DNA of 45,822 nt from a virus, in IMG/VR virus record IMGVR_UViG_3300049043_000192, positions 1 to 45,822 of that record. The stretch is one strand, 5' to 3'. The notes under the pieces were generated by a model. It made no database searches. It was not told where the DNA came from and saw only the letters and a list, made by a program, of their open reading frames with translations. The position numbers and the translations under genes were made by a program. The stretch's first letter is position 1. Every line of letters begins with the position of its first letter. This document shows positions 9,198-30,266 of this stretch, piece by piece.

Positions 9198-12100
9198 TTA
9201 CGGGTGCCGGTAGAAGTATTGCAGGCGGCGGAGTGTGCGTTGTTCGCCTTGCGCGGCACCTTGGGCGGCAGCCTGTTGCATACCACGCTGGAACTGGTCT
9301 GCCGTAACGTAATCGACTTGGTTGATGCGTTCCACCGTAAAGCGCACGTCGATGGGACCGCCACCACCTATTGCAGCGCCACCGGCACCATCGGAACCGG
9401 ATGGAATGACGGAAGAACCACGGGCACCGGCGGCGTAGCGATTCATGGCGCCACGCATCTTGCTGGCGGGAATGACGTATTCGGGCTGCCCGCCTTCGCC
9501 AACCATGCCCATCGTCGGACGGGTGACTACGCCACCATCAGCAAAGGCTTGGAATCCGCCGGACCAATAGGCGCCGTCTTTTGCGCCTTTGAATCCGAAC
9601 GCAGTGGCTAGATGCGAAATAATTCCAACTTTGTCGCCACCGCCTAAAGCCCCAAGGGCTTGGGCAATGCCATACATAATCAACATTCGGCCGATCGTAA
9701 ATAGCAGGTCGCCGGCAAGATTTTGCAGAGCCGAACCTAGTTCTTCTGTACCTCTTACAGCCGCAGTAAGTGCGCCGTCAAATACACCAGATACTGTTGA
9801 TGCTATGCCTCCGAATAGATCTTTTTTCCATCTGGAGTTTTTCTGCTGCAGTTTTAAGTGCATCATTCTGCTCAACAAGTGTGACTAAGATCTTTGCCTG
9901 TAATGGATCTGTTACCCCTTTTAAGATTGCGGCTTTTCGTAGTTCCAGTTCTACTTGTTTGCTGTTTCCTGCCAAAGAAGCTTGAAGAAGATAGTTTTCT
10001 TCTTGTAGTTGAGTTTGTCTTTCATATCCAGGAGCTAAACGATCTAACTCCATGCGGGCAAGATCCTGCTCTGTCTGTTGCCGAATAAGTGCCTGTTTAG
10101 CTTGCTGGGTCTGTGCTATTGCAAGCTGACCAGCAGTTGTTTTTTCTTTTTCGAGTAATTTAGCTGTTTCGATTCCCCACTCTCTTAACTGCTTTTCACC
10201 TTCTTAAACGCCTAGCTAGTTGGGCATTTCCTGCGCTTTGAGCAGCAAAAATTTGTTGGTTGTATTGGTACTGTGCGCGAAGTTCCGCTGTAGCAGCTTT
10301 TTGATTTATTAGTAATGTAGCTAAACGTTTAGCTTCACTTTCACCGCTAGGCCCTTTAGGTCCAGGGCTAGGTGGCGCTTGACCTAAGGAACTTACATCT
10401 ACACCTGTAACTTGTGTTTGCTGTGTTTGTAGTCCAGTCGCAGCTTTAGTGACTTGTGATTCAAAAAATTGACGTTCTACAGGTTTAAGAGCTGCTATAC
10501 CACCAGCTGTCAACGTGTTACCGCTTATTAAAGGAGACTTAGATCCAGAAAGTCTTTTTTTAAGCTCAGGAAATTTTTCAAGCGTTGCTTTACCAGCTAA
10601 CGCAGAAGCTTTTACGTCTAAAGAAGAACCACCACTAAAAGCTTTAGCAACATTTTGCACTGCCTGTGCAGCTAAACTTATTAAGCCAGCTAGCCGTTCA
10701 GCGAGCCAATTAAATGCTGGCGTCAAATTTTTAACAATCGCGTTACCGAGATCGCTAAGCGCAGTTCCTAGATTCTTAGTTGACTTACTTAACTGATCGA
10801 AGCCGGTTTTTGGTTTTGCGGCTGCGGTAACACCTGCATTACCTACTTGTACAAGAGTATCGACAAGTGTTTGTAAAGATATTTTACCTTTTTTGGCCAT
10901 CTCCAACAAAGTATCTCGCGATACTCCAAGCTTTTTAGCTAAAGCATCTTGTATATTTATACCTTGACTTGTTAGTTGGTTTAATGTTGCTTGACTAACG
11001 CGTCCTGACTCCAAAGCAGATGTAATAGCGTTACCTACTTTGTCGAAAGATCCACCATATTTATCTGTTAAATTTGTTACTACTTGAATTAAGGCAGCTT
11101 GGTCTTTAAGTTCTAAACCTAGACCGCGAATGTTTTGAATTACTGCAGTAAATTTTTCGACGTCCGTATTTGCTTTTTTAAAAGCGTCTCCTAAAACATT
11201 CGCTTGTTGCGCTGAAAAACCGATGTCTTCACCGAGTTGTTTTATTTTTTGGGCTTGCCCCGCAATTTCACCAATAGCCGTACCTGCAATAGATAGAGCA
11301 AATCCAAACCCGCGACCAAGCAAGCCGCCTGCAAGACCGCCTAGACCGCCACCTGCTGCAGCGGCTGCCCCTTGACCAAATAGCAGAGGAAAACCACCAC
11401 CAATAATTGCGCTGCTTACTGCTCCTGGAATACGCTTGCCCAAAGTTCCGAAACCTGCGCGAGCGGCTGTTTGGGCTCCAGGAAGCATTGATTGTGCTCT
11501 ACCTCCCATAAGCTGCATAGGACCTTCTACAGGAAAAGTTCCTCCGCCTACGCGTGGACGTGCAATTCCGGCGGCAAGGCGCTCTCTGGCAGCTGCACTG
11601 GCCGCACCTTCTCTACTTCGTATAGCAAGAGCTGTTTTCTGAGCTTGTTGGTAAAGATCAACAGATACTTTTTCAGCTTCTGTAAAGAAGGTGTTCCAGC
11701 TCTGTTTAAGGTTTATACCTTTTGCAGCTGCTGTAGTTTTTAGGTCACTACCTAGTTCTGCAGCTTCTGTAAAGAAGGTGTTCCAGCTCTGTTTAAGGTT
11801 TATACCTTTTGCAGCTGCTGTGGTACGTATATCGGTACCTAGTTCTGCCGCGTCTTTGAAGAATGTATTCCAATTTTGCTGGATTTCTTTTGCCCGCACC
11901 ATTGCAGGTGGAAGAGCCGGCATTTGCTGGCGGTAACCTGCGTTACCAGTTGGCACAATTCGTCGTTGTGCTGCAGTTTCAGCAGCTTGTATATTCCGAG
12001 TAAGTCGTAGACGTTCTCTTAAACCACTATTTAACTCATTTGTAGCGTTTACATATACTTTTGCTGCTGCATATGCTTCTTCTGTTCCCAAAGCAACTTT

Positions 12101-20821: not shown

Positions 20822-21039
20822 CACTTTTTACCTTTTTTGGTGGATTTTTTGGCGGGTTTGGTCATGCCGGCCTCGGACATGGCAATGGCGATGGCTTGCT
20901 TGCGGGATTTCACCACCGGACCTTTTTTGCTGCCCGAGTGGAGTTCGCCTTTGCCGTATTCACGCATCACCTTGGCGACCTTTTTCTGGGCTTTGGTCGG
21001 TTTTTTGGCGGCCATTTTGATGGTGTACGTGCTTACCAC
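20821..21039 (-). CDS. Small basic protein, DUF6496-like
   Basis: 72 residues. VAKVMREYGKGELHSGSKKG, then KSRKQAIAIAMSEAGM and a Lys-rich tail. This is the pattern I associate with DUF6496: a short helix, HSGSKKGPVV and a KQAIAIA.SEAG helix. It overlaps the terminase stop by 7 bases and is coupled to the next gene by ATGA. Role unknown. The sequence suggests nucleic-acid binding. Confidence 0.7.
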   Translation of the reverse strand: MVSTYTIKMAAKKPTKAQKKVAKVMREYGKGELHSGSKKGPVVKSRKQAIAIAMSEAGMTKPAKKSTKKGKK

Positions 21040-22283
21040 ACACGATAAGTTGTTTTTCCGAGCGATTCAGGTTTGGCCAAATTGAAGGTTTGTAGGCATA
21101 AATACCCAAGAGCGTCGAAAGCGTGATCCACGCCAAGGTTCTTGTTGGGGAGGCCGGTGTTGGGGGCATAGGTGAGGGTGCGGAGGGATTTGATGAGTTC
21201 CACGCAGCGGGGGTGGATGAAGAGGCGGCGTGTTCCAGACGCATCTAATAGTGCGGTGTTAACGCAGGTGATTTTGTCGCGGATTTTCCACGGGTTGCGT
21301 GGGCTGGAGACGGTGAAGCCGGATTTGCGGAGGATGTTGTGGTCGGTGGCGCCAACGCCGCTGGTTTTGCGGGCGCCGCCGGTGGGGTCGGGGCACGCGA
21401 TGATGCGGCGCTCCACGCCGTAGCGGGATTGGATTTCTTCGCAGAGGTCCCAGGTGGTGGCGCCGCCGCGCATGATGATTTCGTCGAAGACCCAGAGGAC
21501 GTCGCCTTTTTTGACGGCGCAGACGGCGGACATGGGGTCGACGTTGAAGTCCACGCCAAGGAGGAGGGGGAGGACGGGGAGGTCTTGGACGATTTTGTCG
21601 ATGTTGGCGTCCGAGAATGAGACGGCGACGAGACCGCTGAGATTCTCGAAGCTGGCCTCGAACTCTTGGCGGAAGGTGCGGGCGTCGAGTTGGGCGCGGG
21701 CGGCTTCGATTTCCTCCGGGGGGACGTTATCGCCGTCAATGGTGGTGTACTGCCAGCGTTGCCAGTCCGGGTCGTCGTTTTCGCAGTAGCACCAGAGGTC
21801 GTAGAACCAGCTCGCGGTGCCGTCTGGGGTGGAGATGAAAAGTGCCCAGCCTTGTTTGTCGGCGAGTGCGGGGCGGATCACCTCGAACCAGACGTCGGCG
21901 GACATGAACGCGGCTTCGTCCAGCACTACGCCAGCCAGACTGCGGCCGCGCAAGGCCATGGCGTTTTCGGTGCCCTTCAGTTCGATCGTGCTGCCGTTGA
22001 CCAGCTCAATCTTGAGGTCGGTCTCGTTTTTGCTCTTGATCCAGGCTTTGGGGACGAGTTTCTTCATTACCTTCCAGGCGATGTCCTTCGCCATCCGGTA
22101 TGTAGGGGCCGCGTAGAAGAATGTTTCGCCCGGCCTTTCGATCGCCCCACGCAGCAATTCGATACACGAGAGGTAGCTTTTGCCGAAGCGGCGTCCTGCT
22201 ACCAATACTCTGAAACGTTTGCGGCTGGTGAAAACTTGCCCTTGGGCGTGGCGGAGGGAGAGTGTTCCAGCCTCGGTGGGCAT
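21033..22283 (-). CDS. terL: Terminase large subunit
   Basis: 416 residues, intact. The ATPase has a Walker A-like VLVAGRRFGKSYLSCIELL near residue 25 and Walker B GVVLDEAAFM near residue 135. The RNase H-like nuclease follows with LLLGVDFNVDPMSAVC (first Asp), VFDEIIMRGG and a late DHAFDALGYL. It powers DNA packaging into the head and cuts the concatemer. Four small genes lie between it and the portal, and the putative small subunit lies four genes upstream at 23358. Confidence 0.95.
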   Translation of the reverse strand: MPTEAGTLSLRHAQGQVFTSRKRFRVLVAGRRFGKSYLSCIELLRGAIERPGETFFYAAPTYRMAKDIAWKVMKKLVPKAWIKSKNETDLKIELVNGSTIELKGTENAMALRGRSLAGVVLDEAAFMSADVWFEVIRPALADKQGWALFISTPDGTASWFYDLWCYCENDDPDWQRWQYTTIDGDNVPPEEIEAARAQLDARTFRQEFEASFENLSGLVAVSFSDANIDKIVQDLPVLPLLLGVDFNVDPMSAVCAVKKGDVLWVFDEIIMRGGATTWDLCEEIQSRYGVERRIIACPDPTGGARKTSGVGATDHNILRKSGFTVSSPRNPWKIRDKITCVNTALLDASGTRRLFIHPRCVELIKSLRTLTYAPNTGLPNKNLGVDHAFDALGYLCLQTFNLAKPESLGKTTYRVW

Positions 22284-23099: not shown

Positions 23100-23180
23100 T
23101 ACTGTTACAGATTAAAATAGCTTATGGGTGCCGGATGCTAGGATCCCCAAGCTAGTGCAACCGTACTACCCTGCGACACT

Positions 23181-23276
23181 AGTACATCAGACCTATAGTA
23201 CGCCTGTGCTGTAGTACACCAGACCTATAGTACGCCTGTGCTGTAGTACACCAGACCTATAGTACGCCTGTGCTGT
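23181..23276. repeat. Three tandem 32-bp repeats
   Basis: Units at 23181-23212, 23213-23244 and 23245-23276. The last two are identical and the first differs at one base (CATC for CACC). Each unit holds two AGTAC cores in the arrangement AGTACACCAGACC-TATAGTACGCC. No spacers separate them. They lie 80-180 bases upstream of the 23020 operon's promoter-like sequence, in a non-coding gap between that operon and the small terminase gene. Confidence 0.9.
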
Positions 23277-23310
23277 AGGCCATGTGTACTAGCGCCCTGG
23301 CGCGGGCATG

Positions 23311-23368
23311 TATGAATGGCAATTATGAATGGCAATCCAGGCAGTTATGAATGGCAATTATGAATGGC
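23311..23368. repeat. Four ATGAATGGC repeats
   Basis: TATGAATGGC occurs at 23311, 23324, 23346 and 23359. Each pair is spaced exactly 13 bases apart, with TATGAATGGCAAT as the unit. The last copy overlaps the stop of the small terminase gene, where its reverse complement supplies the final codons GGC CAT TCA TAA. The same motif clusters again at 26245-26586. Confidence 0.9.
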
Positions 23369-23828
23369 CTTTTGGCGCGTCGCCGCGTTTATCTTCAATA
23401 GTTATAGCTAACTGGGGCGCGGCTTGGCTTGCAACTTCTTGAGAAAGTTCGCCAGCAGCTCTTCCCAAGCTATCTAAAAGGTGACAGGCAACTTGATAGT
23501 TTCCTTTGCGAATTGCCTTTTTAAGTACAGCTAACCGTGACGCGGTGATAATGTTCAACATTTCGGTGCGATCTTCTAGTCTTTCTTCTTTCAAAAGCTG
23601 CATGGCTTTTGAGATGTCATCGTGAGCGGTTCGAATACTGATGCCGAACCGAGACGCAACGAGTTCGGCGTTAGCGCGGCGGGTGTTCCCTTCCAACAAA
23701 AGGCTGTAAGCGTAGTTAATGCGCTCATCCATCCGGGCCTGGGTGCTACGGCCACCGCGCCACCGCTTGCTCTCATCGTTGGCAACGGTTGTAGGTTTTA
23801 CTACTTCTTGGCCTTCGGATTCGGGCAC
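23358..23828 (-). CDS. Putative terminase small subunit (helix-turn-helix)
   Basis: 156 residues from a GTG start. After a variable N-terminus come RMDERINYAYSLLLEGNTRR and ANAELVASRFGISIRTAHDD, a clear helix-turn-helix. Helices LNIITASRLAVLKKAIRKGN and YQVACHLLDSLGRAAGELS follow. This layout fits small terminase subunits that bind the packaging site. It lies upstream of terL with three tiny genes between. A DNA-binding regulator is the main alternative. Confidence 0.55.
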   Translation of the reverse strand: MPESEGQEVVKPTTVANDESKRWRGGRSTQARMDERINYAYSLLLEGNTRRANAELVASRFGISIRTAHDDISKAMQLLKEERLEDRTEMLNIITASRLAVLKKAIRKGNYQVACHLLDSLGRAAGELSQEVASQAAPQLAITIEDKRGDAPKGHS

Positions 23829-23904
23829 CGGCTGTAACGCTAACTTGCTGGCCCCATGCTACCCTCTGCGCTCTCACGTTTTGCAAGCGGCCGCAGGCCG
23901 CGCA

Positions 23905-23932
23905 GCAAAAAAGCCCGGCAGGATAGCCGGGC
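23905..23932 (-). terminator. Rho-independent terminator after the antirestriction gene
   Basis: On the minus strand GCCCGGC and GCCGGGC pair around TATCCT and are followed by TTTTTTGC. It starts about 23 bases past the stop of 23955-24615. A second GC-rich hairpin (GCGGCC-GCA-GGCCGC) follows at 23887-23901. Confidence 0.85.
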
Positions 23933-23954
23933 CGTTGATCGGTGGGCGTGCCAG

Positions 23955-24615
23955 TTAGACCCCGTTAAAGACCAACCAGTCACCACCGCCGAGACTGTGC
24001 AGCCTGTAACCGTCGCCGATCTCAAGCTCTCGCCAAGCGGCGGCCCAGTCGACGCAGGTTAGCGGCCACTCCATTTGATCCAACTTGACGCCCAGATCCT
24101 CCGCCAGCTGTTGAGCGTAGTCTGCGCCGGCCCGTTCTTCGCTCCATCCCTCGGCCCGCCCCTGGTACGAATCCTCAGCGGTGTTGGGGTCGATCCCGTC
24201 GTCGTCTAGCTCAGCAATCAACGACAGCCCAGCCGGTGGGGTCATCGTTGCCCAGCCCGAAAAGCTCCAGCGCTTCCGCCCAGGATTCGTCAGGCCAGAA
24301 CCCGAAACAGGCACCGTCGCCCTCGCTGCTTCCGAAGTAGAAGCCGCAGGGTGCCAGATCCTGCAGCGCGTCGGTCAATTCTTCTAGGGTCTGCGCCGCT
24401 TCGTCGTCGTTCCAGTCGGCTTCGCTGGAATCCTCACCGACTAGGCGGTTCAGGCTGGCGAGGGTGGCGGCGTTGATCGCTTGGGGTCGATCTGCCAGAA
24501 CCGCCAGGGATTCGGCGGCGCTCCAGAACTTGGGCAGCAGATCCTCAATGCGGAGGGTATCGCAGCTCACGATCCACGGAACGGAATCGAGCTGTTCGGA
24601 GTTGTAGCGGGTCAT
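23955..24615 (-). CDS. ArdA-like antirestriction protein (frameshifted)
   Basis: Starts at 24615 (MTRYNSEQLDSVPWIVSCDT). It runs to DGACFGFWPDESWAEALELF in one frame, then after an indel near 24240 continues AELDDDGIDPNTAEDSYQGR, EGWSEERAGADYAQQLAEDL and CVDWAAAWRELEIGDGYRLH to 23955. That is about 219 residues. The EDSYQG motif, the acidic nature, and a W-x-A-x-x-R-(D/E)-L helix followed by a G-x-W-L-V-F end match the C-terminal domain of ArdA DNA mimics, which block type I restriction enzymes. Call by motif only. Confidence 0.6.
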
Positions 24616-24674
24616 GGGGTGAGCCTTAGGGTAGGGCTGTCATTGTGAATAGTAGAACCGGAACCGGCCCGGCG

Positions 24675-25293
24675 TCAAGCCAGCGTCGTAGGGTAAGCGT
24701 TCAGGTTTTCCAGAATCAAATTCCGGAGCCGGTCGAAACCAGAATCATCGCGCCAGGGTGCGGAATCATCACGGGCCGCAAAAACGCACAACCCCAGATC
24801 CTGCAGCATCCGCACCCGCTCGGCGATGCTCTCGCCGCCCCAGTCGGAAGCGATGCCGTCCCATTCAAGTTGACTGTGGTCATCCTCTGAGATCAGGGGA
24901 ATTCTCCAGAGCTTCGACCGTCTCCAGCACGTCAGCCGGAACCCGCAACAGATCCAACACCACACCCTCACCGTTCCACCCGTAACCCACAGTCAGGATG
25001 CCGCCGTGGGGGTCGGGAGTGCTGGCGGAATCGGTGAGAACCCGGAAGTTGGACAGGCCCACTAATCCGGTGTTGCTGTAATCACTCCAGCCGCAATACG
25101 ACGGCACGAAACCTAGGGAGACGCCGCGCCACCGCTCAGACAGGCAGGTTGCTAGGTGATCCTCCGGACTCTGGTGCCACTGGTGGCTGCAGTCTGTCTC
25201 GGGCTCACCGTCTCGAATCAGGATCCAGTGGCCGGAGCATCCGGCGAGACGTTCGATTCGCTCCAGCAGAGCGGGGGAAGCTGTGGGTCGCAT
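24675..25293 (-). CDS. Unrecognised protein (frameshifted)
   Basis: From ATG at 25293: MRPTASPALLERIERLAGCS, then GHWILIRDGEPETDCSHQWH and NTGLVGLSNFRVLTDSA. An indel near 24900 leads into EDDHSQLEWDGIASDWGGES and GFDRLRNLILENLNAYPTTL. The total is about 206 residues, Trp- and Cys-containing, with a beta-rich middle (GGILTVGYGWNGEGVVLDLL). I recognise no family. It lies upstream of the ArdA-like gene in the same direction, so it may be another accessory or host-interaction gene. Confidence 0.5.
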
Positions 25294-26240
25294 GGCAGGA
25301 TTCGCCGAAGTGCTCCCGTAGTGTACAGCATGAGAGCACCCTTGCAAGCCTCCCGGCGTGCTGATACTGTTGGAGGGTACCGAAACCCACGGCACAATGC
25401 CACCGCAACTTCGGCAACCGACCGCTAGGCCCGCTTCAGCGAAACTGGCTTAACTTCCTGCGCCACAATCCCGGCCCGCACTTCGTCGCACTGCCCCAGC
25501 CAGCAGATCATCCGCATCGCGGAATCGCTGCAGGCCCGCGGCCTACTCACCCGTGGCCGCCAGCGCGACATAAAACGCCCGCGGCGTGAATCCGGTGCTC
25601 ACGGTCAGCTGGAGGCGGTGTGAGCGGCGGAGACTGGAACACCACCCGCGAAGCTGCAAAGCTGAGGCTCGCAAGCGGATCAAGCGCGACCTTGACCGAC
25701 GAGATCTCTGCGTCAGGCAGAAGCGAGCCCTCCGGGATTTGCGCTTCTGTGCGTGAACTGCTCGACACCCTCAGCCCGGAGGCCAGTGGCTGGGACTCTA
25801 CCGCTGGAATCTGGCACCAGCTGCACGGATCAGGTGAGGGCATCCGGGAAGCTGCGTCGAGTCTACAGAATCCCAGGCGGTATTGGAATCAGTGCCAACA
25901 GCGCAACGGGGGCACCTTAGCTGCCCGAGGCGATGCTGGTGCCGGTTGGCTTGCCGAGAATTCACAGTGCAGAATTTGCGCGCACACGATAACGCCGCGC
26001 AACCCGTGCGAGGCGCCAGCCGAGCACGTGCAGCCGCAAGCCGCGCACGGATGCCGGCATCACCAAACCCCGCAAGCCTGCGAGCCCCGGAAGCGCTCCA
26101 GCTGATGCCCCAGCCCTCACCCCAGCGGTGGGGGCACTCCCTCTCCCATGGGTGAGACTCATGAGACGCACTGTGAGAACCCCTAGGGCTAAGCACGTAG
26201 CACGCGTGCTACATCCGCCGCCGGACGATACCAGTGCACC
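25294..26240. other. GC-rich stretch without a clear gene; possible decayed plus-strand gene
   Basis: No complete ORF looks convincing. Plus-strand fragments in three frames read like protein: SQQIIRIAESLQARGLLTRG (about 25500-25560), AEARKRIKRDLDRRDL (about 25660-25710) and QWLGLYRWNLAPAARIR (about 25785-25835). They could be pieces of one broken gene of about 130 residues. After about 25850 I see only repeats and palindromes. Longer open frames here look like effects of high GC content. Confidence 0.35.
26197..26212. promoter_or_regulatory. Perfect 16-bp palindrome
   Basis: GTAGCACGCGTGCTAC reads the same on both strands. It is 14 bases after another palindrome (CCCTAGGG) and about 30 bases before the ATGAATGGC cluster. 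It is possibly an operator or the top of a small hairpin. No gene start is nearby on the right-hand side. Confidence 0.5.
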
Positions 26241-26244
26241 AGGG

Positions 26245-26586
26245 CATGAATGGACTTTTAGGCAGTCATGAATGGCTTTTCGTCGAGGGCGCCAGCCCGA
26301 GACATGAATGGCTTTTTACAGCCCTCTGCCACTGCCCATCCACCAGCTCCCAGCGGTGTTCCCAGTCGCCGCACCAGGCATCGCTTGTGGTGAATGGCCA
26401 TCCTGAATGGCTGGGTGAATGGCGCCGGCAGGTGTCAGATACGTACCAGCGACATACCTGGCAAGTTATGCCTAGGGGCAGTTCATGCGGCATGAATGGG
26501 GTTTTGCAGGGCTTCAAAGTAGCGTTCCACCCGTTCCAGGTAAGCGACCTCGGCTCTCTTCAAGTCATCGGCGTCTAGTGAATGGG
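26245..26586. repeat. Cluster of eight (C/T)TGAATGG repeats
   Basis: CATGAATGG or TGAATGG(C/G) begins at 26245, 26267, 26303, 26391, 26404, 26416, 26491 and 26579. Several copies are followed by a run of T (ATGAATGGCTTTT). GGCAGTCATGAATGGC here differs by one base from GGCAGTTATGAATGGC at 23340, linking both clusters. Copies lie in the Cys-rich gene, at its stop codon, and in the 3' end of the nuclease gene. Confidence 0.85.
26266..26493 (-). CDS. Small Cys-rich (zinc-type) protein carrying repeat motifs
   Basis: 75 residues from ATG at 26493: MPHELPLGITCQVCRWYVSD, then TCRRHSPSHSGWPFTTSDAW and CGDWEHRW. The C-x2-C-x6-C-R-R ... W-C-G-D-W pattern matches small metal-binding proteins common in phages. 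The start overlaps the nuclease stop by 11 bases. Two copies of the 3' sequence AAAAGCCATTCATG encode KSHS, so the repeat seems to have extended the C-terminus. The second copy supplies the stop TGA. Confidence 0.55.
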   Translation of the reverse strand: MPHELPLGITCQVCRWYVSDTCRRHSPSHSGWPFTTSDAWCGDWEHRWELVDGQWQRAVKSHSCLGLAPSTKSHS

Positions 26587-27298
26587 TTTGGGGCGTACCA
26601 CAACGACGCGCCAGGACGATGATTGCTCCAGAGGGTTTTAAGCCGGTTAAATGTGTAAGTCCAAGAGAATAAGCGCCGCATTGATGTACATAACTATGGG
26701 ATGAATCGAGGTTTTTACGATTTACTGAGGTTTTCCAGTCAGCAACAATTAACCCTGAATGGCCCTTGAGGCACAGTAAGGCATCTGCTGTTCCAGCAAA
26801 TCCAGCCGGGTGGTGGATGCTGAACTCGGAGGCGAAAATCTCGGTGGCGTGCTCTGTGATCCAGTCAGACAAGCCTCTTGCGTAGCCCGCGGCGCTGAAT
26901 CCAACTTTGGGAACGTTGGGTCTCACCCGCTTGAGTGCCCACTGTGTGATCGGGGCGGGGATACGTGCCAGTCCCAGCTCATCCCATTTGATCGCGTTGC
27001 GCTTGTTGGCGGTGTTGCGTGCCAGCTGTTGGGCAGTCTTGAGCAGATACTCGGCTTGGTTGTGGGCAAGATTGCCGCGGGTGGCGGCCATTTGCCTCTG
27101 CGCTCCAGCCTCGGAGGGTCCCAGGCGTTGCTCCCAACGCACCAGGCCGCTCGTGTCGCTTGTTTCCTTCAGGATGTGTGTAACACTAGTGTAGACGTTA
27201 CCGGATGAGTCTCGGTAGACGCGGTGCGGGCCTGTATCGTCACGCTCCAGCCGCCATTTACGCAGTCCTGCCAAGGTGTCTTGCGTATTTGAAGGCAT
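26483..27298 (-). CDS. PD-(D/E)XK nuclease, RecB/Cas4-like exonuclease
   Basis: 271 residues from ATG at 27298 (MPSNTQDTLAGLRKWRLERD). Motifs: YTSVTHILKETSD near the N-terminus, TRGNLAHNQAEYLL (motif I region with His), EFSIHHPAGFAGTADALLCL (motif II Asp), IVADWKTS (motif III, D-x-K) and YVHQCGAYSLGL (motif IV Q-x3-Y). This is the standard order for RecB-family exonucleases used in phage recombination or replication. It is downstream of the ssDNA-binding-like gene, from which a terminator separates it. Confidence 0.85.
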   Translation of the reverse strand: MPSNTQDTLAGLRKWRLERDDTGPHRVYRDSSGNVYTSVTHILKETSDTSGLVRWEQRLGPSEAGAQRQMAATRGNLAHNQAEYLLKTAQQLARNTANKRNAIKWDELGLARIPAPITQWALKRVRPNVPKVGFSAAGYARGLSDWITEHATEIFASEFSIHHPAGFAGTADALLCLKGHSGLIVADWKTSVNRKNLDSSHSYVHQCGAYSLGLTHLTGLKPSGAIIVLARRCGTPQTHSLDADDLKRAEVAYLERVERYFEALQNPIHAA

Positions 27299-27330
27299 TT
27301 GAATAGTTTTTCCCACTCTCATAATACCAA

Positions 27331-27357
27331 GAAAAAAGCCCCGCACAATGGCGGGGC
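27331..27357 (-). terminator. Rho-independent terminator after the ssDNA-binding gene
   Basis: On the minus strand GCCCCGC and GCGGGGC pair around CATTGT and are followed by TTTTTTC. It lies 19 bases past the stop of 27376-27957 and 33 bases before the nuclease start. Confidence 0.85.
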
Positions 27358-27375: not shown

Positions 27376-27957
27376 TCAACCTGCCTTGAAGGGGTTGGTT
27401 CCATCCAGGAGGCGGGTGATGTCGAAGCCTTCAGATTTGGCCTCCAGCCAGGCGGCGTCGATGTGCTCTTGGCTGCCCTTCTTGCGGGGGACGGGGCGGA
27501 CGGTGTACTCGGTGAGCAGGCCGCTGCCCTTCTTGCTGACGGTGAAGTCCCACTCCAGCAGGTTCTCGTAGTCCTCCATCTGGCTGATTTGATCCAGCTC
27601 TTTGATGATGGACTTTTGAGTGATCTGCAGGACTTGGACTTTGCCGGAGTCGTAGTTGTAAACCGGCATGGCGATGAAGAACTTCACGTCTGCGGTGCCG
27701 GGGCCGCCGCGGCCTTCGCGGGGCTCGAACTCGCCCATTTCCACCTTGATGTCCTCGTAGGTGGGCTCTTCGGCGAAACGGAACGGCTTGTTGGTGCCGT
27801 TGCTGGAGCCCCAGGACTCGTAACCCTCCAGGGGTTCGTCGGTGAGGAGCGCGAAGCGGACGGTTCCGCCGTCAGCCAGCTTGCTAAGGCTGAGGTAGCC
27901 GCCACCGGTGGAGCTGTTGTTGACGGCTGCGGAGGCTTGCTTGGAAAGGAAAGGCAT
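27376..27957 (-). CDS. Gp32-like single-stranded DNA-binding protein
   Basis: 193 residues from ATG at 27957 (MPFLSKQASAAVNNSSTGGG). The core has GGTVRFALLTDEPLEGYESW, FIAMPVYNYDSGKVQVLQIT, a KSIIKELDQISQME helix and LEWDFTVSKKGSGLLTEYTV, an OB-fold-like order resembling T4 gp32-type proteins. I see no clear acidic tail; it ends LLDGTNPFKAG. It is the first gene of the minus arm, opposite the primase-helicase, which fits a role in replication and recombination. Confidence 0.65.
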   Translation of the reverse strand: MPFLSKQASAAVNNSSTGGGYLSLSKLADGGTVRFALLTDEPLEGYESWGSSNGTNKPFRFAEEPTYEDIKVEMGEFEPREGRGGPGTADVKFFIAMPVYNYDSGKVQVLQITQKSIIKELDQISQMEDYENLLEWDFTVSKKGSGLLTEYTVRPVPRKKGSQEHIDAAWLEAKSEGFDITRLLDGTNPFKAG

Positions 27958-28103
27958 TGTGGTTTCCGTGTTTTTTGTGGTCGCCCGAGGGCAACGTGTG
28001 AAACAGTAGCACGGTATTGACGATCTGGCTAGCCTAGTAAAACGCCCCAGCTGCGGACGGCAGCCAGGGCGCGTGTAACACAACACTGTAGGAGTCTAAC
28101 AAC
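27958..28103. promoter_or_regulatory. Divergent intergenic region between the two arms
   Basis: 146 bases separate the minus-strand ssDNA-binding gene from the plus-strand primase-helicase. Both arms must start in or near it. Plus side: a TTGACG box at about 28016 and an AGGAG ribosome site nine bases before the GTG at 28104. No spacing-perfect promoter could be called by eye. It is the natural place for early promoters and perhaps an origin. Confidence 0.5.
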
Positions 28104-30266
28104 GTGTCTAGTAAGACGCAAGACCTGCTGGCCTTCGTGCGCCAGCTGCCGGTTGGGATGGCGTACACCCCGATCTACGAAAAGGGAGTGGTTACGCCTA
28201 GCGGCAAAGTCAGCGAGGGCAAGGCAGCCCCTGTAGACGGGCATGGGACCATTGATATGAATGGTGCTGATGTAGCACTTCAAATTGAGCGTCAGCCGCA
28301 GACCAGTTCAAAGCCGTTGGTGTGTGGACAGGCCCGCGTAGCAACGGACTTGTAATCCTTGACGTTGACCGGAATCTCAGCCGTCTGCGAAAAAGCGTTG
28401 GGGTTCCACCTTGGATGGGGCTCCAGTCGTTACCATCGACAAAAGCCAACGCCGCAAAATATTTATTCCGGATCCCTAAGGAGCTCTGTGGGGATCTGTG
28501 ACAAGGTTTTGGACTTTCAGATACTGGTGCGGGTTATGAGGTCTTGTGGCATAAGCGCCAGGGGCTTCTGTATGGCGCTTATCCGGGCTCTAAGGACGGC
28601 AAGGCACCGGAGGGCTTCTATGGCTTTGAAGGCGATCTAGAGGCGATTCCAGAGGCTCCTGAGTGGCTTGCTGGCTGAAATGCGTGACCGTTTTGGTAAA
28701 GGCGTTGAGGATGCCGGCTTCATTAAGAACAGGAAGGCGCTGGATTTCTCGGATCGAGACCCGGCTGAGGTGGCTGAGATTATTCAGTCCGCTCTGAAAG
28801 TTATTCCTGGGCAGGGGGCTGGCAGCCGGGACCACTGGGTGAAGGTGGGGATGGCGATCCACAGCGAACTGCCAAACGACGTTGGTTTGACGTTGTGGGC
28901 AGCTTGGTCGGCTGAAGACCCCGAATATGCCGACGAGTGGACGGGCTCCAATCCCTGTGAAGACGTTTGGAAGAGCTTCCGCAAAGGGGCCGTAAGCCTC
29001 GGTTCGCTTGTTCTGGATGGCGGACCAGCAGATGCCGGGGCGGCTGTGGCTTGCTGAGGATTTGCGGAAAGTGGTGGCCGATGTTGAGGCCGACACTGTT
29101 ACAAGGATTCGGCACGTAACCCTTAGTTATGGCGAAGTCATTAGTCGTGCCAAGGAAATCGCAAGAACTGGATAACCCGGCTGAAATGGCTCACCGCATG
29201 AACGCTTTGGCGCTTGAAGCCGGTTATCGGGATGCGGGGGCGCTAGAGAGGTTGCTGATTAGTCAGATCCAGTACGAACAGCGGGATGACGATATGGAAA
29301 TTGGAGTTTTGCTGGATAAAGAGGTCCAGTTGGATTATCTGATTCCTGACTTGCTGCCTAAACCCGGTGTCGTGATGATCCACGGGGCTGGTGGTGATGG
29401 CAAATCCATGACCGCGTGGACGCTGGCAAAACATGTTGCTCGTGGTTTGCCGTTTTCCATTCGAGGTGCTGATGTACCAGTGCAGCAGGGGAAAGTTCTG
29501 ATTCTTAACGGTGACCAGTCCGAAGTTCAGGTAAAGCAGCAGATGCAAGACCTGGAACTCGGTCACAACGATCCAATCCGGGTTGTGATGGGTTGGGATC
29601 TGAACTGGTATCTGCGTTTTGTCAAACTCGTTGAAAAACACAAGCCCGCATTGGTGGTGATCGACTCCATCACCGGTTGCAGTAGAGGCTCGGCGTTTGA
29701 CGAAAATCGCAAGGAGTTTGCTGGGCCGCTCTACTGGCTGCGCTAACAACAACGGAAGGCTCTTCCCGCCATGCACGATCCTCGTGGTACATCACAGCAA
29801 CAAATCCGGGGGTTCCGGGGGACCACGGCACTCAGGGACGCCGTAGACGAGGCATGGAGCCTCAGGAAGCCCTCTGACAAGGAGATGGAGCGTGTGGGGT
29901 TCTCCAGCCGCCTCATCACGGTGGAGAAGAGCCGTGCAGGCCGTGGTGGCAGCAAGTTGCTGCTCAAGATGCTGGAAGATCTGACCTTTGAGCTGAAGGA
30001 CTACGTGGAGCTCGACCACCGAAAGCGCCACGCCAGCTTCCATCGTTGATCGTGTGCTCCAGCGGTTGCGGTCGGCCGCCAAAAGCAATGAGGGTCGCAC
30101 CCGGCAGGATCTGCACTCCGACCCATTGTGCGGAGGCAGCGTGGTGGGCATCAAGAAGGCGCTCCAGCGCTTGGAGGCACGGGGTTTGATTTTTAGTACA
30201 GAAGAACCCAGCTCCAGAAGGGTTGGTTCCAGCGTTAAGAGGTACTTCGCTTTAGCTCTCGCGTGA
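28104..30266 (+). CDS. Primase-polymerase / helicase fusion (multiple frameshifts)
   Basis: About 720 residues when joined, from GTG at 28104 (SSKTQDLLAFVRQLPVGMAY). Prim-Pol domain: VGVWTGPRSNGLVILDVDRN with the catalytic D-V-D, then YEVLWHKRQGLLYGAYPGSK. PriCT-2-like domain: DHWVKVGMAIHSELP and ALWAAWSAED-type sequence before CEDVWKSFRKG. RecA-like SF4 helicase: Walker A MIHGAGGDGKSMTAWTLAKH, Walker B PALVVIDSITGCSRGSAFDE, then LVVHHSNKSGGFRGTTALRD. C-terminal winged helix: KKALQRLEARGLIFSTEEPS. Indels are visible near 28300, 28490, 28670, 29000, 29160, 29745, 29815 and 30045. It likely primes and unwinds DNA at the phage fork. Confidence 0.85.

Follow-up and report, generated by a model that had tools for sequence, protein, structure and literature searches.

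A strand-polar CCATTCA word cluster covering the exonuclease to small-terminase-like stretch is common to a large, uncultured virus family with photosynthetic bacteria as hosts

Introduction

To our knowledge, the phages with known packaging sites are a handful of models, and sequence alone is a poor guide to such sites. Iteron origins, such as the lambda origin and plasmid iterons, comprise short direct repeats near replication or recombination genes. Chi (GCTGGTGG in E. coli) is distributed genome-wide and is host-encoded. In phage P1, 161 bp of pacA hold the seven TGATC(A/G) hexamers of the pac site (PMC10028697). In SPP1, pac comprises three sets of direct repeats (boxA/B/C) at the start of the small-terminase gene, and the small terminase (TerS) of SF6 binds pac without sequence preference (PMC4737164). 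Multi-site cis-acting control regions of phages are already known; the one described here is built from the word CCATTCA.

Results

The window, by which we mean the whole stretch of DNA that was analyzed, is an IMG/VR record of 45,822 bases that represents a whole virus record and, by gene content, a siphovirus-like phage. It encodes tail, major head, portal, and large terminase (TerL) proteins, a dCTP deaminase, an ssDNA-binding protein (Ssb), a PD-(D/E)XK exonuclease (Exo), and a family-A DNA polymerase. The lysins of the window and of Synechococcus phage S-CBS1 share 59% identity. An 87-bp tandem repeat (2.3 copies, positions 11674-11872) lies within the tape-measure gene. The features of the region that carries the repeats are given in Table 1.

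Table 1. Features in and around the CCATTCA cluster of the window.
Feature	Position	Strand	Remarks
Large terminase (terL)	21033..22283	-	PF03237 1e-17, phrog_2 1.2e-47; 80-96% identity across core family
32-bp tandem repeat	23180..23278		3.1 copies, 98% matches, TAGTAC-rich; adjoins array 1
Array 1, four CCATTCAT(A/G) copies (ATGAATGGC on plus strand)	23311..23368	-	3' end of TerS-like gene and just after
Small-terminase-like HTH protein, TerS candidate	23358..23828	-	last codons built from motif (KGHS*)
Variable cargo genes between the two sub-clusters	23955..25395	-	ArdA-like 23955-24314; 24211-24615; 24880-25395
Array 2, eight CCATTCA copies	26245..26586	-	between and inside exonuclease 3' end and Cys-rich ORF
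Small Cys-rich ORF with motif copies	26266..26517	-	
PD-(D/E)XK exonuclease (exo)	26483..27346	-	three motif copies inside; PF12705 2.3e-8, phrog_298 1.7e-28
Ninth cluster-2 copy	26756..26762	-	inside exonuclease gene, codons for GHSG
ssDNA-binding protein (ssb)	27376..28086	-	phrog_1607 1.4e-5
Outlying copy, same polarity	28258..28264	-	upstream of ssb

Read on the minus strand, the core of the repeat is CCATTCA, which corresponds to TGAATGG on the plus strand. A preliminary description of this DNA had reported four copies at 23311-23368 and eight at 26245-26586. The first four are exact, with ATGAATGGC at 23312, 23325, 23347, and 23360. The other eight are present as TGAATGG (starts at 26247, 26269, 26305, 26391, 26404, 26416, 26493, and 26579), with the full ATGAATGGC in two only. 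The 16-base stretch said to be shared with one mismatch was recovered as AGGCAGT(T/C)ATGAATGGC. Clustered copies thus number four within 23313-23367 and nine within 26247-26762, and all 13 are on one strand. Copies were also said to end minus-strand genes, which is true of ORF 23358-23828 (GGC CAT TCA TAA, ...KGHS*), and to have entered the Cys-rich gene, within which we likewise found them; a further copy, at 26493, falls within the last exonuclease codons (NPIHAA*). That description mentioned neither that the copies without exception share one strand nor that exonuclease and small-terminase-like genes anchor them. A stretch resembling the Cys-rich ORF, with the same motif copies, was detected in six related loci (L255, L404, L407, L413, L431, and L435).

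Spacings between copies are irregular (9-95 bp and more) and show no phase. Flank preferences (AAAnG on the 5' side, T then a purine on the 3' side) extend the consensus to AAAnGCCATTCATR. A chance origin is ruled out, as shuffles of the window never matched the observed counts (six ATGAATGGC versus a shuffle mean of 0.41 and maximum of 2; 17 TGAATGG versus a mean of 6.0 and maximum of 12), and the heptamer and the counts in relatives agree.

A search with the exonuclease recovered 49 related contigs, nearly all of which carry CCATTCA on the exonuclease sense strand, within the exonuclease gene or just beyond it. Searches with terL and ssb were added, yielding a set of 107 IMG/VR loci that encode ssb or the exonuclease plus terL. 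In every one of the 107, the ssb/exo-terL interval contains two or more copies; in total, 719 copies are sense and 22 antisense there (1.29/kb), as compared to 16 sense and 16 antisense outside of the interval (0.019/kb). Dereplication left the pattern unchanged (86/86 loci; 598 sense versus 18 antisense), and in near-complete relatives nearly every copy falls between ssb and terL. No heptamer of the interval is more over-represented than CCATTCA (259 versus 9 expected, in 35/35 loci). Single-mismatch variants with the same polarity are so much rarer (at most 94 versus 719 exact copies) that CCATTCA can be considered a strict word. Two other conserved noncoding words, TCTGACAC and GTAGTACGG, were set aside as confined to a few relatives. 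One relative, L520, whose contig ends after exo, has no copy around terS-terL. Matches to terL were found on at least 600 contigs in one IMG/VR scan. The CCATTCA cluster is thus common to a large virus family, uncultured and infecting photosynthetic bacteria, in which the copies together form one polar, multi-site DNA element in the stretch from the exonuclease to the small terminase.

Copies within coding sequence allow the target of selection to be evaluated. Among 33 exonuclease genes, 92 copies were observed versus a mean of 14.7 and a maximum of 25 in synonymous shuffles, and these occupy all three codon frames. Each of 84 unique exonuclease genes carries one to seven copies, which are spread over 22 alignment positions with no position universal. 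Selection therefore targets the DNA word: its presence is retained while site positions turn over. The three codon frames, the excess over synonymous shuffles, and the noncoding arrays rule out an artefact of a repeated protein motif. Clusters in three other genomes (G036, G037, and G029) were rejected as protein-repeat artefacts; in G036 and G037 (L476 and L477), HRTDGPAVE...LNG protein repeats mimic the motif by codon choice and are false positives of the pattern search. The suggestion of a spreading repeat made in the preliminary description survives in the sense of site turnover and not in the sense of a mobile repeat, since phage-like arrays are missing from 300 picocyanobacterial genomes.

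The two arrays had been described as bracketing a segment with an ArdA-like gene, and ORF 23955-24314 is indeed weakly ArdA-like (phrog_2059, E = 0.0075). Exo and terS are adjacent in some relatives (32-144 bp apart) and the cluster spans both (L268), whereas in the window they are separated by about 2.6 kb that carry the ArdA-like and other cargo genes. Because the cluster is continuous in relatives with adjacent exo and terS, the bracketing is better read as cargo within one cluster; we infer that the two arrays of the window represent one exonuclease-to-small-terminase cluster into which cargo would have been inserted. The 32-bp tandem repeat next to array 1 may be a putative piece of the same control region.

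The bracketing had also been taken to suggest recombination borders for the exchange of cargo genes. As refutation of its readings, the preliminary description had named a conserved segment with random repeats in relatives; we observed the opposite, a variable segment with constant repeats. Cargo between exo and terL does vary, and 4.3% of homology breakpoints lie within 10 bp of a copy versus 2.3% (0.023 +/- 0.010) at shifted positions. However, this roughly twofold excess is no larger than about 2 s.d., the conserved exo itself contains many copies, and neither strict polarity nor conservation of copy count is expected of simple borders. Relatives with no cargo between exo and terS moreover retain the cluster. 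Recombination borders are thus a weak reading, and we consider them highly improbable.

A gene-blind scan of all viral contigs for three nearby copies returned at least 118 loci. Among the viral loci listed, 91/118 carry a relative of terL, exo, ssb, or terS, as compared to 0/120 of the three-copy loci in bacterial genomes. The motif is retained in phages of 27-66% G+C and over terminase identities from 96% down to 23%. Among the phages recovered, A+T-rich ones (27-37% G+C) have a TerL that is 80-84% identical; in G+C-rich ones, identity is about 27-54% for exo and 23-28% for TerL. In five of the A+T-rich relatives (L118, L028, L036, L068, and L086), TerL is 80-84% identical to that of the window despite about 30% versus 55% G+C, conservation that is unusual for a phage protein. 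More distant still, G038 (TerL 24% identical) has a nine-copy array, as does G035 (79.5 kb), although no window protein was recognizable in the 20 kb of G035 searched. Both arrays are largely noncoding and follow a small-terminase gene (phrog_6299, 4e-8 and 3e-9) and a winged-HTH gene; neither genome has a phrog_298 exonuclease match.

Wherever an exonuclease was identified, the copies are sense with respect to it. In the A+T-rich L118, L029, L028, L010, and L036, the genes around the cluster are reversed while the copies keep their polarity on the genome map, which argues that the element acts as DNA and not as mRNA. The terS gene of this lineage is likewise reversed, at a distance of 1-4 kb. 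TerL is reversed in L034 and L073, and the L034 copies have the same orientation as a TerS-like gene. An RNA-level reading, in which CCAUUCA in the transcript would regulate an ssb-exo-terS operon, accords with copies of the core family lying on the sense strand of those genes. It is largely refuted by the A+T-rich relatives, whose copies are antisense to local genes, unless long antisense transcripts exist, and we give it next to no weight.

Direct polar repeats with ssb and an exonuclease as neighbors could also be iteron-like initiator sites of a one-directional replication origin in the exonuclease/small-terminase region. Strand asymmetry in the window has one sign almost throughout, consistent with one-directional replication, and the G035 and G038 arrays follow the winged-HTH gene, which in G038 is weakly DnaD/O-like (phrog_186 0.016, phrog_678 0.027). 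These weak winged-HTH neighbors are the only initiator-like genes found beside arrays; no initiator of a known family was found beside the cluster in the core family, and no clear GC-skew switch was seen at the cluster of the window. Nor are the repeats regular: spacing has no phase, and copies spread over up to 3 kb and into codons. The iteron-like system suggested in the preliminary description is supported as a functional cis-element, with its irregular, dispersed, and partly coding copies speaking against iterons proper, and an origin appears unlikely.

That description had also proposed a search of host genomes for the repeat. Of 300 picocyanobacterial genomes, comprising the family of a Synechococcus assembly (G041), four matched the three-copy pattern, and all four matches were short and unrelated. 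An origin of the repeat in the host was rejected: the word is not enriched in the Synechococcus sample and phage-like arrays are absent from the 300 genomes. A contig belonging to this phage family (TerL 84% identical over the gene) was found in one assembly of the group, which supports picocyanobacterial hosts. In the host sample (L490-L508, G041 C1 1-380000), octamers such as AATTAAGT occur about 121 times on one strand only and are probably a CRISPR or other repeat array.

Strict, polar, dispersed, and position-tolerant copies, present in every unique exonuclease gene and agreeing in polarity with exo wherever it was found, invite comparison with Chi. A translocating nuclease or helicase, putatively the phage exonuclease complex or host RecBCD, would stop degrading close to the packaging cut when it meets CCATTCA in one direction. 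Yet the copies occupy one region only, and polar over-representation genome-wide was found in neither the host sample nor the phages. The sampled Synechococcus genome has 37 copies versus 45 expected, so that CCATTCA is not the Chi of that host, and G035 and G038 carry the array with no phrog_298 exonuclease match. End protection of this kind is, in our estimation, quite unlikely. A second strand-biased word, CTGGAGC (also CTGGAAC and CTGGCAC), is distributed genome-wide (45:8 in the window; 412:94 in 13 genomes including relatives, with polarity kept where genes run opposite), occurs at 2.3 times expectation in the Synechococcus sample, and looks like a Chi or primase site.

The gene at 23358-23828 lies upstream of terL, and its product has a C-terminal tail that is conserved in the family alignment. 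The protein matched phrog_34910 (E = 0.0015), which has no assigned function, and its AF2 model comprises an HTH, a long helix, and a hairpin. A fold search of the PDB placed the G20c small terminase first with a weak score (E 0.53), and a sequence search of the PDB for the TerS-like protein returned nothing convincing (best E 0.0058, circular tendon repeat protein). Position and these weak profile and fold matches make it a TerS candidate. A same-strand TerS-like ORF, detected with the family profile, adjoins the array with its 3' end (0-60 bp) in G024, G027, L064, L067, L103, and L114, and in L034 array copies lie inside such an ORF; phrog_34910 was matched by five of six of these ORFs tested (not that of L034), as by the window gene. 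The TerS HTH varies strongly between relatives (SIRTAHDDI versus SVATAWRDW types) while the motif is unchanged, suggesting that this HTH is unlikely to be the direct reader. Distant TerS-like homologs (28-34% identity) occur in picocyanobacterial genomes (L517, L518, and L519; G317 C12, G136 C1, and G295 C8) and are possibly satellites or prophage remnants.

The CCATTCA cluster was not found in whole records of the cultured cyanophages S-EIV1, S-2L, KBS-S-2A, S-CBS1, and MED4-184 or in the terminase regions of S-CBS2, S-CRES1, and S-CRES3. Nucleotide BLAST against phages gave no match to a cultured phage, and a literature search for CCATTCA plus phage returned one irrelevant paper and no description of the word.

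Discussion

The reading that we consider most likely, and hold tentatively, is that the cluster is a putative pac-like packaging-initiation region. It lies in or next to the TerS candidate gene and upstream of terL, as a pac site would, although 1-4 kb separate it from terS in A+T-rich and type-B relatives; the type-B copies lie at exo, with terS about 2 kb away. The map is circular: relatives differ in where their contigs end, and the genes at the two window ends are neighbors in relatives. A fixed genome terminus at the cluster was rejected, as contig ends of relatives do not cluster. Varying ends with no common end fit headful packaging and do not prove it.

Under the packaging reading, the density and direction of sites on concatemers would be recognized by the terminase complex, either by itself or together with a partner such as the exonuclease or a host protein. 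A first cut would be made at the cluster, and headful packaging would proceed from there in one direction, toward terL and the portal genes. The number and direction of sites would count and their exact spacing would not, and such tolerance would let sites shift in coding and noncoding DNA alike and outlast the insertion of cargo among them. A factor other than TerS may read the word, given that SF6 TerS binds with no sequence preference. A bolder and doubtful proposal is that CCATTCA is a putative phage-specific polar word (KOPS- or Chi-like) that a packaging or exonuclease motor recognizes as it travels along the DNA, and which would set the place and direction of packaging in unrelated cyanobacterial phage lineages, independent of the small-terminase HTH. 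Such a signal would be categorically new.

CCATTCA provides a sequence handle on the start of packaging (or replication) in a large uncultured phage group, as well as a clean case of binding-site turnover within coding sequence. If truly related to packaging, it could also expose satellites or stretches of host DNA that these phages carry.

Among described systems, iteron origins share with the cluster short direct repeats near replication or recombination genes; CCATTCA differs in its irregular, wide spread and in that an initiator was not found. Chi is likewise strict, polar, dispersed, and tolerated in genes, whereas CCATTCA is confined to one phage region. The P1 pac is similar in that a short word is present in multiple copies in or next to the small-terminase gene and is tolerated in coding sequence. 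The P1 hexamers form a compact site and include the palindromic Dam sequence GATC, whereas CCATTCA is non-palindromic, strictly polar, and non-GATC, and its cluster, with its putative packaging role, is broader (0.6-3 kb) and extends into the exonuclease gene. SPP1 and SF6 likewise have direct repeats at the small-terminase gene, and the SPP1 genome, at 44 kb (PMC6316719), is similar in size to that of the window phage. The boxA repeats of SPP1 are missing from SF6, whereas the CCATTCA heptamer is invariant across families.
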